Part shown: positions 3,416 through 13,337 of the stretch, piece by piece | Numbering within the stretch: the first letter of the stretch is position 1 | How the letters are laid out: each line of letters begins with the position of its first letter | NCBI GenBank assembly: GCA_024231775.1 | Contig: JAAEQG010000348.1 | Span: 1 to 32,199, forward strand | Reading direction: 5' to 3' | DNA from: a bacterium | Lineage (GTDB): Bacteria; Planctomycetota; Phycisphaerae; UBA1845 | DNA length: 32,199 bases | The notes under the pieces: model-generated | What the model was told of the DNA's origin: nothing | What the model saw: only the letters and a program-made list of their open reading frames with translations | Databases searched by the model: none | Translations under genes and position numbers: made by a program

Positions 3416-5176
3416 CTACTTCACGACCGGCGGGCCGGCGATGGCGTCGAAGTGTTCGAGAGGGGCTCGATCCCCGCTGCATACCAGCTCGAGATCTCGC
3501 CGCAGCGTGGGCATCTCCCGATCGATGAACCGCTGGGCGACGAGACGTTTGCGCTGGCTGTCCTCCGCCTGGCGGAGGAACAGGTGCCCGATGAGCACCG
3601 CCGCGGCGGCATCGACCAGTTTGCGTCCGTACAGGTCCATGTACTCGTTGCCGCGTCCCCTCACGAAAGCAACGCCCTCGAGGACTTGTTGTGTGCCCTC
3701 GCCGAGCTGCTGTTTGAGGGCATGCAAGGCTTTGTCCTTGAACTCACGCTTCTCGTACTCGGTGACTTGCTTCTCGAACGCACCGGAACAGACCCCGCGC
3801 ACCGCCGCCACGATCTGGAGTTGACTGGTGCCCTCGTAGATGGTCGTAATCCGAGCATCGCGGAAGAGGCGCTCCGCGGGGTAGTCCTGCATATATCCCG
3901 ATCCGCCGAGCACCTGGATGGCGTCGCTGGCTACGCGGTTGCACATCTCGCTGCCGTAGTACTTGCTCATGGGCGTAAGCATGCCGTTGAGCCGCTTGAA
4001 TACGCGGGCGTCGCCCCGGTGCTTCTTCTTCTCGTCCTTGGAGAGCGTGCGCAGGCTGCGCTCCTCCTCTTCCAGGATGCGGAGGGTGTTGTGCTCCAGA
4101 TCGCAGAGGCGGCTGGTTTCGTAGGTCAGCGCCCGGGAGGCTTCAACCGCGATCTTCATGTCCGTGACCATCTCCGCAACTGCGGGGAGGCGCTCGATGG
4201 AGATTCCGAACTGTTTGCGGGTGTGGGCATATTCGCGGGCCACGCGATAGGCTGCCTCGGCGATCCCCAGAGACTGGGCGGCGATCCCCACGCGGGCGCC
4301 GTTCATCAGGCTCATGATGTAGCGGATCAAGCCGAGCTGGCGCTCGCCGATCAGCCTGGCAGGAGCGTCGTCGTAGACCAACTCGCAGGTGGGCGAGCCG
4401 TGGATACCGAGTTTCTCCTCCAAGTGGCGTACTTTGATCCGTGGGTTGCGCTCGGCGAGGAACAGGCTGAGGCCCCGGCCGTCCCTGACGTCCGGTTCAC
4501 TTCGGGCGAGCGTGAGCAGCACGTCACCACAACCGTTGGTGATGAACCGCTTGACCCCGTTGAGCCGCCACTGGCCGTCGTCGTCCTGCCAGGCGCGAAG
4601 GCTGACCGCCTGCAGGTCGCTTCCGGCGTCAGGTTCGGTGAGTACCATCGCTCCGGTCAGCTCGCCACGGGCGAACCGCGGAAGGAACTCCGCTTTGGTC
4701 GCCTCGTCGGCGAAGGCGTTAATCGTCTCGGCGATGCCCTGAAGCCCGAAGATGTTCATCAGCGAGGCGTCGGCCCGGCTGACGATCTCGATCGCCATGG
4801 TGTAGACGAGATTCGGGCAGTTGATCCCGCCGTAGCGACGTGGCAGCGTGAACCCCATCAGGTCCGCCTGGGCGAGCACCTTGAGGTTCTCGCGGACCTC
4901 TTCGCCGAGCGTAACCGTACCGTCCAGGTTGAGCGTGTGGCCGTCGCGATCGACGGTCTCCGCCCTTGGGGCGATGCGGTTGGCGGCTACGTCGCCGGTA
5001 ATGCTCAGGATGCGCCGGTAGTTGTCGATCGCATCGGCTGCGTCGCGCGGAGCGTATTCTCTACCGGGACCGTCGGTCGGTGCAAAGCCGTCCTCCTGGA
5101 GCGTGGCGATCTCCGCCAAGTCCATGTGCTCGAAGAGGAACAGGATATCTTCGTTGTCGGTGTAGAAATTCGGCAT
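3416..5176 (-). CDS. Acyl-CoA dehydrogenase (long form with C-terminal extension)
   Basis: The 586-residue flavoprotein would oxidise an acyl-CoA to the enoyl-CoA and pass electrons to the ETF encoded just upstream. Seen in sequence: an N-terminal helical domain, 'GFTLPRRYGG', the FAD-binding 'AMVLTEPDAGSDL' and 'RFITNG' strands, 'RVGIAAQSLGIAEAAYR', and the C-terminal 'QVLGGSGYMQDYPAERLFRD' followed by 'IYEGTSQLQ' holding the catalytic-base Glu position. About 130 further residues make it longer than the usual ~380, like VLCAD/ACAD9-type or AidB-like enzymes. The start is ATG 5176 ('MPNFYTDNEDILF'); upstream frame is etfA overlap. It lies 5 bases after etfA, so one operon. Chain-length or aromatic substrate cannot be told. 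Confidence 0.92.
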   Translation of the reverse strand: MPNFYTDNEDILFLFEHMDLAEIATLQEDGFAPTDGPGREYAPRDAADAIDNYRRILSITGDVAANRIAPRAETVDRDGHTLNLDGTVTLGEEVRENLKVLAQADLMGFTLPRRYGGINCPNLVYTMAIEIVSRADASLMNIFGLQGIAETINAFADEATKAEFLPRFARGELTGAMVLTEPDAGSDLQAVSLRAWQDDDGQWRLNGVKRFITNGCGDVLLTLARSEPDVRDGRGLSLFLAERNPRIKVRHLEEKLGIHGSPTCELVYDDAPARLIGERQLGLIRYIMSLMNGARVGIAAQSLGIAEAAYRVAREYAHTRKQFGISIERLPAVAEMVTDMKIAVEASRALTYETSRLCDLEHNTLRILEEEERSLRTLSKDEKKKHRGDARVFKRLNGMLTPMSKYYGSEMCNRVASDAIQVLGGSGYMQDYPAERLFRDARITTIYEGTSQLQIVAAVRGVCSGAFEKQVTEYEKREFKDKALHALKQQLGEGTQQVLEGVAFVRGRGNEYMDLYGRKLVDAAAAVLIGHLFLRQAEDSQRKRLVAQRFIDREMPTLRRDLELVCSGDRAPLEHFDAIAGPPVVK

Positions 5177-5181
5177 GGTTG

Positions 5182-6210
5182 CTACGCTCGTTCTCGGATG
5201 GATTTTATCATCATGGGGATCACCTTGTTGAGATCGCCGACAATGCCGTAATGGGCGACCGAAAAGATCGGGGCTTCGGGATCCGAGTTGATCGCGATGA
5301 TCTTGGCGGATTCTTCCATCCCCGCCCGGTGCTGCACCGCTCCGCTCACCCCACACGCAATGTAGAGCGCAGGACGCACGGTCGTGCCGGTCTGCCCGAC
5401 CTGGTGCTCCTTGGCGATAAAACCGCTGTCCACCGCGGCACGTGAAGCCCCCACCGCTCCGCCCAGCACGCCGGCGAGGTCGTGGATCAACTGGAAGTTC
5501 TCCTTACTGCCCACGCCCCCACCGCCGGTGACGATGATGCGGGCCCCCTTCAAAACGACCGTGCGCTTCTCGCGATGTCGCTCGATCAGCCGGACCGCCA
5601 GGTCGACATCGCTCAGCTCAACCTTCTCCTCGATGATCGTCCCGCTACGTTTGGGATCGCCCTCCAACAGCGGCATTACCCCCTCGCGCACCGTAGCCAT
5701 CTGCGGCCAGCGATCGTGATTGACGATCGTGGCGATGATGTTGCCTCCGAACGCCGGACGAATCTGCATCAGCAGGTTCTTGTGCTCGGTCTTGCTGCGG
5801 TTGTCGTGGTAGTCGCCAATCTCCAGGGCGGTGCAGTCGGCGGTGAGGCCCGCACGAAGCTCGGAGGCCACCCGCGGAGCCAAGTCGCGCCCGATCGCAG
5901 TGGCGCCGTAAATGACAATCTGCGGCTTGTACTTCTCCACCAGTTGGCACAACACCCGGGCGTAGGGCAGCGTGCGATAGTGCTCCAACTCGGTGTCCTG
6001 CGTGCAGTACACCTTGTCCGCCCCCTGGGCGATCAGTCGGTCGGACAGCTCGCGCACGTTCCAGCCGGACAGCACCGCCGCCATCTCCACGCCGAGCTGG
6101 TCGGCCAACTCGCGCGCCCGGCCACACAGCTCCAAAGACACGTCGTTGAGGCTGCCATCTTCCTGCTCAGCGAACACCCAGACGTCGCCCTGTCGATTCG
6201 GATCAATCAT
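5182..6210 (-). CDS. etfA: Electron transfer flavoprotein alpha subunit
   Basis: The 342-residue EtfA/FixB homologue binds FAD and, with EtfB, shuttles electrons from acyl-CoA dehydrogenase. The N-terminal domain begins 'DVWVFAEQEDG' and includes 'YGATAIGRDLAPRVASEL' and the conserved 'AGLTADCTAL'. The FAD domain has 'VTGGGGVGSKENF', 'GGAVGASRAAVDSGF', 'HQVGQTGTTVRPALYIACG' with 'SGAVQH', and 'IAINSDPEAPIF' near the end, all standard. Start ATG 6210 has only a weak ribosome site. It lies between etfB (149-base gap) and the dehydrogenase (5-base gap). The gap to etfB carries no gene. Confidence 0.95.
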   Translation of the reverse strand: MIDPNRQGDVWVFAEQEDGSLNDVSLELCGRARELADQLGVEMAAVLSGWNVRELSDRLIAQGADKVYCTQDTELEHYRTLPYARVLCQLVEKYKPQIVIYGATAIGRDLAPRVASELRAGLTADCTALEIGDYHDNRSKTEHKNLLMQIRPAFGGNIIATIVNHDRWPQMATVREGVMPLLEGDPKRSGTIIEEKVELSDVDLAVRLIERHREKRTVVLKGARIIVTGGGGVGSKENFQLIHDLAGVLGGAVGASRAAVDSGFIAKEHQVGQTGTTVRPALYIACGVSGAVQHRAGMEESAKIIAINSDPEAPIFSVAHYGIVGDLNKVIPMMIKSIRERA

Positions 6211-6359
6211 TCAAGAAGCTCTCAGCTTTCAGCCGTGAATCTCAACTCGTCATCCTGCCGGTCGGTGCCGATGGTACCCGCCCTGCCTCTGCTGCCTGGA
6301 CAGCCAAGGACCTCGGTTTCATCACATCCCGGGCAGCTCGAGGGTGCGGGTACTGACAA

Positions 6360-7274
6360 TTACCCAAGCGTATGATCGAGGATCAGCTCCTGGGTCATCT
6401 GCCGGATACCGTCCTCGGTGGCAGGCACCTCCGTATGCCCCTCCTTGGTGAGCACGATGGATTGGACACGATGGACTTTGGTCGGTGACCCGGTCAACCC
6501 GCACCACTGCAGGTCCGCCTCGATGTCGTCGAGATCCCATTGGTCGAGCAGCAGGTGCTCCATCTTGAGAACCTCGAGCCGTTTGGCCCACTCCGCATCC
6601 TGTTGCTCTGCGGATGCGCCACTGAGTTCCTTAGCGACGTCCCGCTTCAGTCCGTCCTCGGTCCGGGCTCGCTTGTAGCCCATGACTCGCCGAGCAGACG
6701 CCGGTCGCGGCTCGTTTGCGGAGTCCAGCACGGTGCATAGCAGCGGAAGCTCAGCCTCCAGCACTTCCCATCCGTTGCCCACATTCCGCCGGACCCGCGC
6801 CGTGCGCTGGTCCAGCTCGACAAGCTGCTCATAGTAGGTAGCCTGGGGAACTCCCAGCTTCTCGGCAAGCTGTGGGCCGACTTGGGCTGTGTCCCCGTCG
6901 ATGGCCTGGCGGCCGCAGAAGATAAAATCGTAGCGGCTGATCTTCTCGATCGCCCGGCTGAGGATGTAGCTGGTCGCCAGCGTATCGCTGGCTGCAGCTC
7001 GCCGGTCGGTGAGCAGGATCACCCGATCCGCTCCGCGGTAGAGACACTCGCGCAGCACCTCGGCGGCGTTGGGCGGTCCCATCGCGATAGCCGTAACGGT
7101 CCCTCCGAAGCGATCACGCACGTCCAACGCCGCTTCCAGCGCGTTAAGGTCCTCGGGGTTGAAGACGGCTGGGAGGGCGGAACGGTTGACCGTTCCTTCA
7201 GCGGTCATCGCTTCGACGGTAATATTGCTGGTGTCTGGAACCTGCTTTACGCAGACTATGCTATCGTAACCCAC
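6360..7274 (-). CDS. etfB: Electron transfer flavoprotein beta subunit, FixA/FAD-type
   Basis: The product is about 304 residues from GTG 7274, chosen because 'IVCVKQVPDT' must lie at the N-terminus and GGAG sits 8 bases upstream; an in-frame start at 7346 would add 24 unlikely residues. Family motifs: 'VFNPEDLNALEAAL', 'AIAMGPP', 'GADRVILLTDRRAAASDTLATS' and 'GRQAIDGDTAQVGPQ'. The last two resemble EtfB proteins of the Fix and butyryl-CoA electron-bifurcating systems, where this region binds FAD, rather than mitochondrial-type EtfB that binds AMP. At ~304 residues it exceeds the usual 250-260, with a C-terminal extension containing 'LRWCGL'-like 'LQWCGLTGSPTKV'. First gene of the operon with etfA and the acyl-CoA dehydrogenase. 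Confidence 0.93.
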   Translation of the reverse strand: MGYDSIVCVKQVPDTSNITVEAMTAEGTVNRSALPAVFNPEDLNALEAALDVRDRFGGTVTAIAMGPPNAAEVLRECLYRGADRVILLTDRRAAASDTLATSYILSRAIEKISRYDFIFCGRQAIDGDTAQVGPQLAEKLGVPQATYYEQLVELDQRTARVRRNVGNGWEVLEAELPLLCTVLDSANEPRPASARRVMGYKRARTEDGLKRDVAKELSGASAEQQDAEWAKRLEVLKMEHLLLDQWDLDDIEADLQWCGLTGSPTKVHRVQSIVLTKEGHTEVPATEDGIRQMTQELILDHTLG

Positions 7275-7602
7275 TTCCGCGCTCCGTATGCTCCGCCAAT
7301 CCTCGCTCAGGGTGCTGAAAATAGCCATCCAAGACGCTCCCGTCAAGCTCCTGAGCCCCGCTGAACAGCACCGCTACGTAGGCCCAGGGCAGAAAGTTGA
7401 CTCCCAAGGCCCAGTTCGCCGAGTCCTCCAGCAAGTCGGGGGCCACCCCGCATTTGACGCATCCGTGTCAGCCTAACCTGTGCGGCGTTGTGCGACGTCG
7501 AAACAGCAATCGGCGTGCAGCGGTGCGTACCGCCAGTCTCCTGAGTGTCATGCGAACAGACCGAACAGTGGGCCGCACTTACTGGCGAACGGAGTTCGAC
7601 GT

Positions 7603-8015: not shown

Positions 8016-11000
8016 ATGTTAGTCACACGTCGAGAATTCATGAAAACCTCCGCGGTGACTGCGGGGGTGGCTGTAGCCGGGATGGGGTTCGCCCTGGCCC
8101 CTGTGAGGGCTCACGCGGTAGAACTCCGCAAGAACCTCGAGGAGGCCACTCGCACCACGACCATCTGCCCCTATTGCGCAGTGGGCTGTGGGCTCGTGGT
8201 GGACTCTTCGGGAGGTAAGGTGATCAATATCGAGGGCGACTCCGAGCATCCCATCAACGAGGGGACGTTGTGCTCGAAGGGTTCCTCGCTATTCCAGATG
8301 GCGGGTGGGAACAACGCGAACCGCCTCACCAAGGTGCGTTATCGCGCCGCAGGAGCGTCCGAGTGGACGGAGATCAGTTGGGGGGACGCCCTCGCCCAGA
8401 TCGCGGCGAAGATCAAGGCGACCCGCGATGCCACGTTCACCGAGACCAACGACGCGGGGCGAACGGTGAACCGAACCTTGGGCATCGGTTCGCTGGGCAG
8501 CGCCGCCTTGGACAACGAGGAATGCTGGTTGTACCAGAAGTTCCTGCGTGCTTTGGGCCTGGTGTACATAGAACACCAGGCGCGGAACTGACACTCTGCC
8601 ACCGTCGCCAGTTTGGCGACTTCGTTCGGCAGAGGGGCCATGACCAACCACTGGATCGACATCGGCAACAGTGATGTCATCCTGATCATGGGGTCCAACG
8701 CGGCCGAGAACCATCCGATCTCCATGCGTTGGGTGAACAAGGCCCGGGCGGATAACGGGGCCAAGATGATCAGCGTGGACCCGCGTTTCACCCGCACCTC
8801 CGCGGTGGCGGACATGTACGCTCCGTTGCGCAGCGGAACCGACATCGCCTTCCTTGGCGGGATGATCAACTACATCCTGCAGAACGACTTCATCCAGGAC
8901 ACCTACGTCAAGGAGTACACCAACGCCAGTTTCCTGGTAAACGGGAAGTTCAGCTTCGACAGCGGGATGTTCAACGGCTACGACGACACCACCGGCAAGT
9001 ACGACAAGACCGCCTGGGCGTTCCAAAAGGGCGAGGACGACGTGATCCTCAAGGACAAGGACCTGGAGGACCCGCAGTGCGTCTATCAGTTACTCAAGAC
9101 GCACTACTCGCGCTACGATCTGGCTACGGTCTCCAGCATCACCGGCACCCCGGAGGCCAAACTGCAGGAGGTGTACGAGACGTACGCCGCCTCGGGCGCG
9201 GTGGGCAAAGCCGGCACGATCATGTACGCGATGGGCTGGACCCAACACACCGTTGGGGCCCAGAACATCCGCACCATGTCCATAATCCAGCTCCTGCTGG
9301 GCAACATCGGCGTGGCCGGCGGCGGGGTGAATGCCCTGCGTGGTGAGTCCAACGTACAGGGCTCGACGGACCACTGCCTGCTGTTCCACATTCTGCCGGG
9401 CTACCTCAAGACCCCGGTGGATACCTGGACCGACCTCACCACCTACAACGAGTCGGCCCGGCCAATAACCACCGACGAGCCGCGCAGCGCCAACTGGTGG
9501 CAGCACACGCCCAAGTACATGGTCAGTTTTCTCAAGAGTATGTACGGCGCCGCGGCGACCTCCGAGAACGAGTTCGCCTACCACTGGCTGCCCAAGTTGG
9601 ACAGCGGGGCCAACTACGCCTGGCAACCGCTGTTCGACGCCATGTACAACGGGTCTATCAAGGGCTTCTTCGCCTGGGGGCAGAACCCGGCTTGCAGCAG
9701 TGGAAACGCCGACAAGGTCCGCCAGGCGATGGCCAAGCTCGATTGGATGGTGTGCACCAACATCTACTCGACCGAGACCTCCGAGTTCTGGCGCGGTCCG
9801 GGCATGGATCCCGCCTCGATCAACACCGAGGTGTACGAGTTGCCCGCAGCCGCCTCCATCGAGAAGGAAGGCAGCATCACCAACTCGGGGCGCTGGGGTC
9901 AGTGGCGCTACAAAGCCATCGATCCACCGGGTGACGCCAAGCCCGACGCCGAGATTCTGGACGAGCTGTTCACCGCGGTGAAAGCCCTGTACGGCGAAGG
10001 CGACGTTTTCCCCGACCCGATCCTGAATCTCAAATGGGATTACTTCGACGACCCAGCCAAGATCACTCACGAGTTGGCCAAGGAGATCAACGGGTATCAC
10101 CTGGTCGATAGCGAGAATGGAAACGCCGGCGACCTGGTGACCAACTTCACCAAGCTGGCCGACGACGGGACCACCGCCTCGGGTAACTGGCTGTACTGCC
10201 AGTCGTACAACGAGGACGGCAACAACATGGCCCGGCGCACCGCCGGCGGGACCGATCCGATCGGCCTGAATCTGGGTTGGGCCTGGTGCTGGCCGATCAA
10301 CCGCCGGATCATCTACAACCGGGCCAGCGTGGATCCGAAGGGCGTCCCGTGGGATGCGACTCATCCGGTGATCGCCTGGACAGGCGAGGGCTGGGAAGGC
10401 GACGTGCCCGATGGCGGTTGGGCGCCCATGCAGAACGCCGACGGTACGGACAATCCCGATTCCATGCTGCCGTTCATCATGCGGCGCTTCGGCATGGGCC
10501 AGATCCTCGGGGCCATGGCGGACGGACCGTTCCCCGAGCACTACGAACCGGCGGAATCGCCCCTGGCCACCAACCCGATGGGCTACGCTCAGCGGTTGAA
10601 TCCCGCAGTCTATGTACCCCCCGCCGAGGAAATGAACGCACTGGCCACCCCGGGCGGGTCGGACTATCCGATCGTCTGCTCGACCTACCGGGTGACCGAA
10701 CACTGGCAGACCGGGGTGATGACCCGCTGGGTTCCGTGGCTCAACGAACTCCAACCGGAGATGTTCGTGGAGATGTCCGAGGAACTGGCCACGGAGAAGG
10801 GCATCGCCAACGGTGACCGCGTCCTGGTCAAGGGCATCCGTCAACCAGCCGGGGTGAAGGCGGTGGCCGTCGTCACTAAGCGATTCAAGCCTTTCACCAT
10901 TGAGGGTGATACGGTTCACCAAGTCGGGTTACCGTGGTGTTACGGTTGGGTGGCCCCGAGCCCGGACGCCACCCGGATCACCAGCGCGAACCTGTTGACC

Positions 11001-11075
11001 CCGAATGTGGGTGACCCGAATACGCGGATCCCCGAGAGTAAGGCCTTTATGGTCGACGTGGTAAAGGAGGCCTAA
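8016..11075 (+). CDS. fdhA: Selenocysteine-containing formate dehydrogenase, catalytic subunit (Tat-exported)
   Basis: This is one 1019-residue protein read through the TGA at 8589-8591 as Sec192; the frame continues without a break to the stop at 11073-11075. It oxidises formate to CO2 at a Mo/W-bis-pyranopterin site. Seen: twin-arginine signal 'TRREFMK' with cleavage likely after 'RAHA' (residue 34); a [4Fe-4S] site at Cys51, 54, 58 and 86; 'EHQARN-U-HSATVAS', the Sec/Cys-His active-site signature; then the long molybdopterin domains and a C-terminal dinucleotide-binding domain ('TYRVTEHWQTG', 'ANGDRVLVKG'). Length matches FdnG/FdhA selenoenzymes (~1000). Start ATG 8016 has AGGAGG five bases upstream. 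The first of four tightly packed genes. A gene finder that stops at TGA would split it into 191- and ~820-residue pieces. Confidence 0.95.
8589..8635 (+). promoter_or_regulatory. Sec UGA codon and bacterial-type SECIS hairpin
   Basis: Directly after the in-frame TGA, CTCTGCC (8594-8600) pairs with GGCAGAG (8628-8634). After a 3/7-base internal loop, GTCGCC (8604-8609) pairs with GGCGAC (8615-8620), leaving the apical loop AGTTT (8610-8614). A stem close behind the codon with a GU-containing apical loop is what SelB recognises in bacterial selenoprotein mRNAs such as fdhF. The structure lies inside coding sequence, as it does in bacteria. Confidence 0.85.
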
Positions 11076-11078
11076 ACC

Positions 11079-11726
11079 ATGGCAGCAAACGGTAAATCAT
11101 TCTTGATCGACACGACCAAGTGTACTGCTTGCCGGTCCTGTCAGGTGGCCTGCAAGCAATGGAACGAACTGGAAGCCGAATCCACCACCAACCGCGGGAC
11201 TTACGAGAACCCGCCGGATCTGTCCGCGAACACCTGGGTGCTGGTGCACTTCAAGGAAAGTGCCCAGTCCGACGGAACCGTGGCGTGGAACTTCGCGAGG
11301 AACTCCTGCCGTCACTGCGTTGACGCCCCCTGCAAGCAGCGGGCGGAAAGCGGCGACTCGATCACTATCGACGAGGAGACCGGCGCGGTGCTCTTTGGCG
11401 AGGGTACACAGAGCGAGTCCTTCGACACGATCCGTCAGGCCTGTCCGTTCAACATCCCACGACAGGGGACTGACGGGCAGATGTACAAGTGCACGATGTG
11501 CGTGGACCGGGTCCACAACGGCGAGTTGCCGGCCTGTGCAAAGACGTGCCCGGTCGGCGCTATCCAGTTTGGCGACCGGCAGGACATGCTCGATGCCGCG
11601 GACGCTCGGTTGGCGGCGATCCAGTCCGACTACCCGGATGCGGCAATCCTGGACCGCAACGAGGCTCGTCTCCTGCTTCTGCTGGGCGACAAGCAGAGCA
11701 TGTACACTACGGTGGTCGGAGCGTAA
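11079..11726 (+). CDS. fdhB: Formate dehydrogenase iron-sulfur subunit (soluble, three-cluster type)
   Basis: The 215-residue ferredoxin-like subunit carries electrons from FdhA toward the cytochrome. It has exactly twelve cluster-type Cys in the motifs 'CTACRSCQVAC' (15, 18, 21, 25), 'CRHCVDAPC', 'ACPFNIPR' and 'CTMCVDRV...PACAKTCPVGA'. That is enough for three [4Fe-4S] clusters rather than the four of E. coli FdnH. It also lacks the C-terminal membrane anchor of FdnH (~290 residues). Both traits match the periplasmic Desulfovibrio-type beta subunit. No signal peptide is present, as expected for a subunit co-exported with the Tat substrate. It begins three bases after fdhA, with AGGAGG inside the fdhA end. 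Confidence 0.94.
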   Translation: MAANGKSFLIDTTKCTACRSCQVACKQWNELEAESTTNRGTYENPPDLSANTWVLVHFKESAQSDGTVAWNFARNSCRHCVDAPCKQRAESGDSITIDEETGAVLFGEGTQSESFDTIRQACPFNIPRQGTDGQMYKCTMCVDRVHNGELPACAKTCPVGAIQFGDRQDMLDAADARLAAIQSDYPDAAILDRNEARLLLLLGDKQSMYTTVVGA

Positions 11727-11737
11727 CGGAGTAGCTG

Positions 11738-12661
11738 ATGAGTGCTTCCCCCTCCTCGGAAAAGTCCACCGAAGCGGCGGTCAAAGCGTTGACCCGGCGC
11801 GCCGAGCAAATACTCAAGGCACGCTCGGCCTACCGGGAAATGGTCGACTTCTACCTGACCGTGTTCCGCCGACAGATCGAGTGGCGCAACCGACTGGTTG
11901 TCCACCCCGAACCGTTGGAGCGCGCCCAGGTGCGGGCTTGTCTAGGCGAGGGAACGCCGCTCATCGAGCGTTACGACCCGGGTATCGAATCGGATTCGCT
12001 CCAGTCCTTCTGGGCAGAGATGAAAACCGTCTTTCGCCGCGGGAACGCCGTGTTGCGCGAGGCGGTCGAGAAAGTCGAGGCGGCCGAGCAGGGGGGTAAC
12101 CTCCTGCCGGCCACCTGGCTGCTGGAGCAACGTCCGGACCGCATCGAACTGGTCGGCGAAGCTGCCGAACTGATCGGTGTAGAGGAAGCTGTGCTGGCAA
12201 CGCTGGCCCGGGCGGTCATCTTTCCGCACTGGCAAGTGGTGTCCGCAAGCTGGCTGCCGGCCTCGGGGCGGATGCACGAATGGAAACGAGCCCGCTGCCC
12301 GACGTGTGACGGGCTACCGGCGCTGGTGGAATTGGGCACGTTGCCCAGCGAGGATCCGAGTCTCAGCCCAGCTCCCCAGCGCTTCATGCACTGCTCTTTT
12401 TGTGCTTCACGATGGGCGGTTCCGGACCTGAAGTGCCCCGCATGCGGTTCGACGAAGTCGGGCGATGCGAAGTACCTGTTCAGCTCCGAAGAACCCGAGC
12501 TGCGCCTCGAATACTGCCAGGAGTGCCAGCACTATGTCAAGGTGGTGGACTCCGGCAAGATCGGCGGCCCGGTGCACGTGGGGCTGGAAGTGCTGACCAC
12601 AACTCATCTGGACGTTATCGCCCAGGAGAAGAAGTTCAAACCCCTGGAAGTATGTTCCTGA
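11738..12661 (+). CDS. fdhE: Formate dehydrogenase accessory protein FdhE
   Basis: The 307-residue cytoplasmic protein is needed for maturation of exported formate dehydrogenases. The N-terminal half is helical. The C-terminal half carries the family's rubredoxin-like Cys pairs: 'RCPTCDGLPAL', 'CSFCASRW', 'LKCPACGS' and 'EYCQECQHYVKVVD'. The ending 'GLEVLTTTHLDVIAQEKKFKP' also fits FdhE. The start ATG 11738 has GGAG six bases upstream and an 11-base gap from fdhB. Its position between fdhB and the cytochrome gene copies the order I recall for the Desulfovibrio vulgaris fdhABC3 locus. Confidence 0.9.
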   Translation: MSASPSSEKSTEAAVKALTRRAEQILKARSAYREMVDFYLTVFRRQIEWRNRLVVHPEPLERAQVRACLGEGTPLIERYDPGIESDSLQSFWAEMKTVFRRGNAVLREAVEKVEAAEQGGNLLPATWLLEQRPDRIELVGEAAELIGVEEAVLATLARAVIFPHWQVVSASWLPASGRMHEWKRARCPTCDGLPALVELGTLPSEDPSLSPAPQRFMHCSFCASRWAVPDLKCPACGSTKSGDAKYLFSSEEPELRLEYCQECQHYVKVVDSGKIGGPVHVGLEVLTTTHLDVIAQEKKFKPLEVCS

Positions 12662-12689: not shown

Positions 12690-13337
12690 ATGAAGAAGAA
12701 ACTGGCAACAGGCAATGTCATGCTGGCGTTAGCCTTCGTGTTGGGAATCGGCCTGATGCTCAGCGGAATGGCCTGCGGCATCCTCTGGCCGTGGCCTGGG
12801 CAGTGCGGCACCGACGCCGATTGTGCCGACGGCGAAACCTGTGCAAACGGCCAGTGCGTGACGCAGACCGCCGAGTGCACTAGTGATGCGGATTGTCCCA
12901 CGGGCCAGGTCTGTCAGAGCGGCCACTGCGTGCCCGAGGCGGCCGAGTGCACCACTGATGCCGATTGCGACGACGGGCTTTACTGCACCGGAACTGCGAC
13001 CTGTGTGCAGGGCGATTGCCAGGCTGGCACCGACCCGTGCGCTATCGGAACCACCTGCAACGAAGACACCGACACCTGCGATCCGATGGGGTCGCCGTCC
13101 CCGTATGCGACCCACGATTTCGACCACGATTTCCACGCGACCTTCGGTTGTGAAGCCTGTCACCACATAGGCAACGTCGGCTGTGACGCAGAGGGCTGCC
13201 ACGCTGAAGAGTGGATCGGCGGGGTGCCCAATCTGAAGGAAGCCATGCACGAGACCTGCGGTACGTGTCATACCGACACGACTGCGGACGAGTTGTGGGA
13301 TTGTACCAAGTGCCACACCTCGTTGCTCGACCTGTAG
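12690..13337 (+). CDS. fdhC: Exported tetraheme class III cytochrome with N-terminal Cys-rich repeats
   Basis: The 215-residue protein starts at ATG 12690, with GGAG nine bases upstream. A hydrophobic signal ends 'LSGMAC'; this could be a non-canonical lipobox or a Sec signal. Residues ~38-130 are about four Cys-rich units of the form 'C.TDADC..G..C..G.CV', a disulfide-type spacer. The last ~80 residues hold four heme motifs: CEACH, CDAEGCH (the CX4CH form found in cytochrome c3), CGTCH and CTKCH, plus extra His in 'THDFDHDFHATF' suited to bis-His ligation. It is the last gene of the fdh operon and the likely electron acceptor of FdhAB. The gene symbol is by analogy. The Cys-rich/heme fusion is unusual. 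Confidence 0.85.
   Translation: MKKKLATGNVMLALAFVLGIGLMLSGMACGILWPWPGQCGTDADCADGETCANGQCVTQTAECTSDADCPTGQVCQSGHCVPEAAECTTDADCDDGLYCTGTATCVQGDCQAGTDPCAIGTTCNEDTDTCDPMGSPSPYATHDFDHDFHATFGCEACHHIGNVGCDAEGCHAEEWIGGVPNLKEAMHETCGTCHTDTTADELWDCTKCHTSLLDL

Follow-up and report, generated by a model that had tools for sequence, protein, structure and literature searches.

Formate dehydrogenase operon

The analyzed stretch of DNA (hereafter, the window) comprises 32,199 nucleotides and belongs to a metagenome bin from the Phycisphaerae (6.71 Mb, 1677 contigs, 97.6% complete, 6.04% contamination). It contains an fdhA-fdhB-fdhE-cytochrome operon with the following features:

8016-11075, + strand: fdhA, formate dehydrogenase catalytic subunit of 1019 aa with predicted selenocysteine (Sec) at residue 192 (TIGR01553, PDB matches)
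8016-8117, + strand: putative twin-arginine (Tat) export signal, TRREFMK and then a hydrophobic stretch (motif in the translation)
8589-8591, + strand: TGA, predicted Sec codon of residue 192 (in frame; aligned codon in relatives)
8594-8634, + strand: putative bacterial SECIS hairpin within the coding sequence, loop AGUUU at 8610-8614 (fold, register, relatives)
11079-11726, + strand: fdhB, iron-sulfur electron-transfer subunit of 215 aa without a membrane anchor (PF13247, 102 bits; PDB matches)
11738-12661, + strand: fdhE-like formate dehydrogenase accessory protein (TIGR01562 and PF24860, both below cut-offs; position in relatives)
12690-13337, + strand: class III type c cytochrome, N-terminal modules rich in Cys; may be a lipoprotein (PF02085, DUF7107)

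The reading frame that starts at ATG 8016 is interrupted only once, by the in-frame TGA, and closes at the TAA at 11073-11075. It is thus open both before and after the TGA, as the initial annotation had proposed. A standard gene caller would end fdhA at residue 191. The full-length product was assigned to the formate dehydrogenase-N alpha family TIGR01553, which spans residues 3-1017 with a score of 1313.7 bits, well above the curated cut-off of 814.2. The nearest solved chains are the FdhA proteins of PDB entries 9qm0, 8cm4 and 6sdr, described as “selenocysteine-containing”, followed by 1h0h and E. coli FdnG (1kqf). Residue 192 lies in the context EHQARN-U-HSATVASL, and in the printed alignments it is matched with the X or C active-site residue of the solved chains, confirming the active-site signature previously recognized around the TGA. 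Just upstream of fdhA, genes for an acyl-CoA dehydrogenase and electron transfer flavoprotein occupy the opposite strand (3416-7346).

The FdhB protein is most similar to beta subunits of the D. vulgaris and D. gigas enzymes; the solved chains nearest to it are 30gj_B, 6sdr_B (E ~4e-61) and 1h0h_B (214 aa). The third gene product is an FdhE-like protein that scores below the family cut-off in TIGR01562 (E 1e-10, 41 bits against 188) and just below it in the FdhE_C family PF24860 (24.5 bits against 27); its gene occupies the same position in the operons of relatives. The cytochrome frame is open from 12675, with ATG 12690 as the likely start. It contains three CxxCH haem motifs and one CxxxxCH motif, and is assigned to the class III (c3) tetrahaem cytochromes with a PF02085 (Cytochrom_CIII) score only just over the cut-off (24.8 bits against 22.9). 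Its N-terminal Cys-rich modules match DUF7107, over the cut-off, and the Myxo Cys repeat.

The gene order fdhA-fdhB-fdhE-cytochrome is retained in those Phycisphaerae relatives whose contigs are long enough. No gene for a cytochrome b subunit was found next to fdhA-fdhB or later in the operon. The small soluble iron-sulfur beta subunit together with the lack of an adjacent cytochrome b gene places the locus with the FdhAB(C3)-type enzymes of D. vulgaris.

Candidate SECIS hairpin

The 41-nt hairpin starts two bases 3' of the TGA. Its lower stem is formed by positions 8594-8600 and 8628-8634, A8601-C8602 pair with G8624-U8625, and the upper stem (8604-8609 with 8615-8620) is capped by the apical loop. 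The start and the GU-containing loop given in the initial annotation were therefore retained, while its end coordinate, 8635, was one base too long. The published characteristics of bacterial SECIS elements are a loop of 3-9 nt, an upper stem of 4-16 bp, G in one of the first two loop positions, a distance of 16-37 nt between UGA and the loop, and a minimum free energy (MFE) of at most -7.5 kcal/mol (PMC13188914). Folding of the region, as suggested in the initial annotation, gave values within all of these ranges: the loop is GUU or AGUUU on an upper stem of 7 or 6 bp, respectively, G is the second base of AGUUU, the distance is 18 nt and the MFE is -23.5 kcal/mol. With the U of UGA numbered 1, G and U of the loop fall on positions 23 and 24, in register with E. 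coli fdnG, where TGA is found at the same codon. Base U17 is bulged in E. coli SECIS elements and is paired in the predicted fold of the window hairpin, which may thus differ from them in detail.

The stability of the hairpin corresponds to a z-score of -2.68, and 2 of 200 dinucleotide shuffles were equally stable. As a stricter control, the 16 downstream codons were recoded synonymously 5000 times; 248 of these recodings matched the MFE, and 25 in addition had a SECIS-like G(U/G) loop at the proper distance. By this control, the hairpin alone is only moderately above chance. Its upper stem is nearly invariant in the Phycisphaerae group, and covariation is too weak to serve as independent proof. 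The lower stem is often broken and shows little conservation beyond the close Phycisphaerae group, and the Desulfobacterota relatives show other pairings in this region. The case for a selenocysteine at this site is decided by the relatives, which keep TGA at the codon, and by the genome's Sec machinery, rather than by the hairpin itself. A scan of the window with Rfam at gathering level and with ARAGORN gave no matches; selC is located on another contig.

Conservation of the codon and the selenocysteine machinery

By scanning public genomes, we collected the 80 closest relatives of FdhA. These are Phycisphaerae and other Planctomycetota bins with 67-81% identity, followed mostly by Desulfobacterota-type bins with ~58-62%. 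At the codon aligned to residue 192, 77 of these relatives have TGA, two TGC and one TGT. Within the order of the window's genome, FdhA matches were found in 15 of 114 genomes, and among the copies close to full length nearly all contain a single TGA; in the phylum sample, matches occur in 14 of 294 genomes, most also with one TGA. In a quick tree, the window protein falls within a supported Planctomycetota group (SH-aLRT 98), with sequences from Desulfobacterota, Myxococcota and others next to it. When plasmids were searched with the Sec region, only partial matches of 60-80% identity were obtained.

These data bear on whether the TGA could have arisen through faulty sequencing or assembly, or through a recent nonsense mutation, in a Cys-type fdhA. 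Such an origin would agree with the many-contig metagenome bin from which the window derives, and with the few relatives that carry a Cys codon at the site. However, TGA occupies the exact codon in independent assemblies from several phyla, as well as in relatives from the same order and in E. coli fdnG. Since so many independent assemblies share it, a sequencing error is excluded, and the explanation as a whole is extremely improbable. The case foreseen in the initial annotation, a spurious TGA among Cys-encoding homologs, thus does not apply.

All four components of the Sec machinery that the initial annotation had singled out for a genome search are present in the bin: selB (contig C1143, 300 bits), selA (C1193, 525 bits; apparently divided between the ends of two contigs, its first residues lying on C578), selD (C360, 366 bits) and selC, the tRNA-Sec gene (C763, 61.4 bits; ARAGORN agrees, anticodon UCA). 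The selD gene (G000:C360:1404-2324; L012/L133) is itself interrupted by an in-frame TGA (SCAG-U-AGK), which makes SelD a probable second selenoprotein. The SelB protein shares 71% identity with its counterpart in a congener and ~50-55% with those of other genera of the family; within the family, 43 of 51 genomes have SelB. Of the 114 genomes of the order, 93 have a SelA score above the cut-off and 85 a tRNA-Sec; in the phylum sample, SelA exceeds the cut-off in 191 of 294 genomes. The kinship of SelB and the frequencies of SelA, SelB and tRNA-Sec indicate that the Sec trait is at home in this lineage. The earlier impression that selenoproteins are not routinely reported from planctomycetes is contradicted both by the SelA distribution and by a 2016 publication describing planctomycete selenoproteins, including Sec-containing FdhA, and complete sets of Sec genes in four planctomycetes (PMC4807772).

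The sel genes could, in principle, reside on contaminating contigs, the organism itself being unable to insert Sec, as might be suspected from the contamination figure of the bin. We assign this scenario a negligible probability: contamination does not explain the sel genes, given that the nearest relative of SelB is found in a congener, selA and tRNA-Sec are present in most genomes of the order, and the G+C content of the sel loci (0.64-0.65) is close to that of the window (0.63). Similarly, the frame would be open under any sense reading of UGA, including tryptophan or another residue inserted through an altered code or general readthrough. Yet other genes of the lineage end normally at UGA (e.g. 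selB in G359), the site is a Sec/Cys active-site position and the genome encodes the complete Sec machinery; hence there is hardly any chance that the codon specifies another residue. As judged from these sequence comparisons, UGA 8589 is almost certainly read as selenocysteine, a reading of the formate dehydrogenase catalytic subunit that agrees with every test available.

Two other TGA codons in sel genes were considered as candidates and rejected. In SelA of the relative G366 (L149; G366:C353), TGA stands at a conserved Gly position of SRGQLIEIGG and is probably a point error or the mark of a broken copy. In SelB of G359, the TGA flagged as internal is the terminal stop. In several f95 genomes (e.g. 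G314:C2:212248-213711), SelA is matched in separate parts of a single open frame, the break falling at model positions ~259-267, which suggests a lineage-specific insertion in SelA.

Comparison with known enzymes and predicted function

In D. vulgaris, DVU_2812, DVU_2811, DVU_2810 and DVU_2809 encode FdhA, FdhB, FdhE and cytochrome c3 of the FdhABC3 complex (PMC10920352). The D. vulgaris FdhAB/FdhABC3 system (6sdr, 8cm4; DVU_2809-2812) has the same A-B-E-c3 gene order as the window. Both systems combine a Tat-type catalytic subunit with known or predicted Sec, an anchorless iron-sulfur subunit (215 aa), FdhE and cytochrome c3. Unlike its D. vulgaris counterpart, the window cytochrome possesses an N-terminal region of Cys-rich modules and a borderline class III similarity; the window also comes from a different phylum, and its FdhE-like protein is below the family cut-off.

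E. coli formate dehydrogenase N (FdnG) shares with the window protein membership in TIGR01553 and the active-site position of Sec. However, E. coli FdnH is longer than the window FdhB (294 against 215 aa), and no fdnI-like gene follows the window fdhB. FdnH of E. coli has a membrane anchor, and FdnI is a cytochrome b. Within the planctomycetes, isolate P1 from Porphyra resembles the window's genome: P1 has a selenoprotein FdhA, as predicted for the window, and both genomes carry the complete Sec genes (PMC4807772). The P1 fdhA gene is in an operon with nuoEF, whereas the window fdhA is of the periplasmic FdhAB-cytochrome type.

Taken together, the window very probably encodes a periplasmic formate dehydrogenase of the Desulfovibrio FdhAB/FdhABC3 type, in which Sec would be inserted at residue 192 via SelB and the hairpin. 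In the proposed mechanism, SelB carrying Sec-tRNA(Sec) would bind the hairpin that closely follows UGA 8589, and the selenocysteine put in at this position would serve as a ligand of the active-site metal, presumably molybdenum or tungsten. The FdhE-like protein would act as a maturation factor. The twin-arginine motif in the translation suggests that folded FdhA leaves the cytoplasm by the Tat route, probably together with the iron-sulfur FdhB. Formate would then be oxidized by FdhAB, and the electrons would probably pass to the co-encoded multihaem cytochrome, and not to a quinone-reactive cytochrome b, since the operon contains a cytochrome gene and none for a cytochrome b subunit.

It can be further speculated that Phycisphaerae of this family have an FdhABC3 variant in which the cytochrome, with its Cys-rich modules and possible lipid anchor, is a surface-tethered acceptor replacing the quinone-reactive membrane subunit. 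We regard this as rather unlikely; if true, the tethered cytochrome would serve, e.g., in electron transfer outside the cell or between species.

Among bacterial selenoproteins, FdhA has the widest distribution (PMC1794560, PMC5029168), and its use of Sec is among the commonest and best-known bacterial uses of selenium, to which the window gene adds one more member without altering any open question. It provides further evidence for widespread selenium use in Planctomycetota, and indicates that some Phycisphaerae have a module for formate oxidation that resembles the one in sulfate reducers.

Minor observations concern individual fdhA relatives. The Cys codon was found at loci L103, L092 and L108; in L103, the DNA after the TGC is still strongly similar to the SECIS region of its TGA-containing relatives, which looks like a recent change to Cys. 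Locus L150 (G318:C204:16500-25500) contains a tandem pair of fdhA genes, the first without an in-frame stop (ESRICVTSAV) and the second with a Sec TGA, which possibly form a pair of non-Sec and Sec isozymes.
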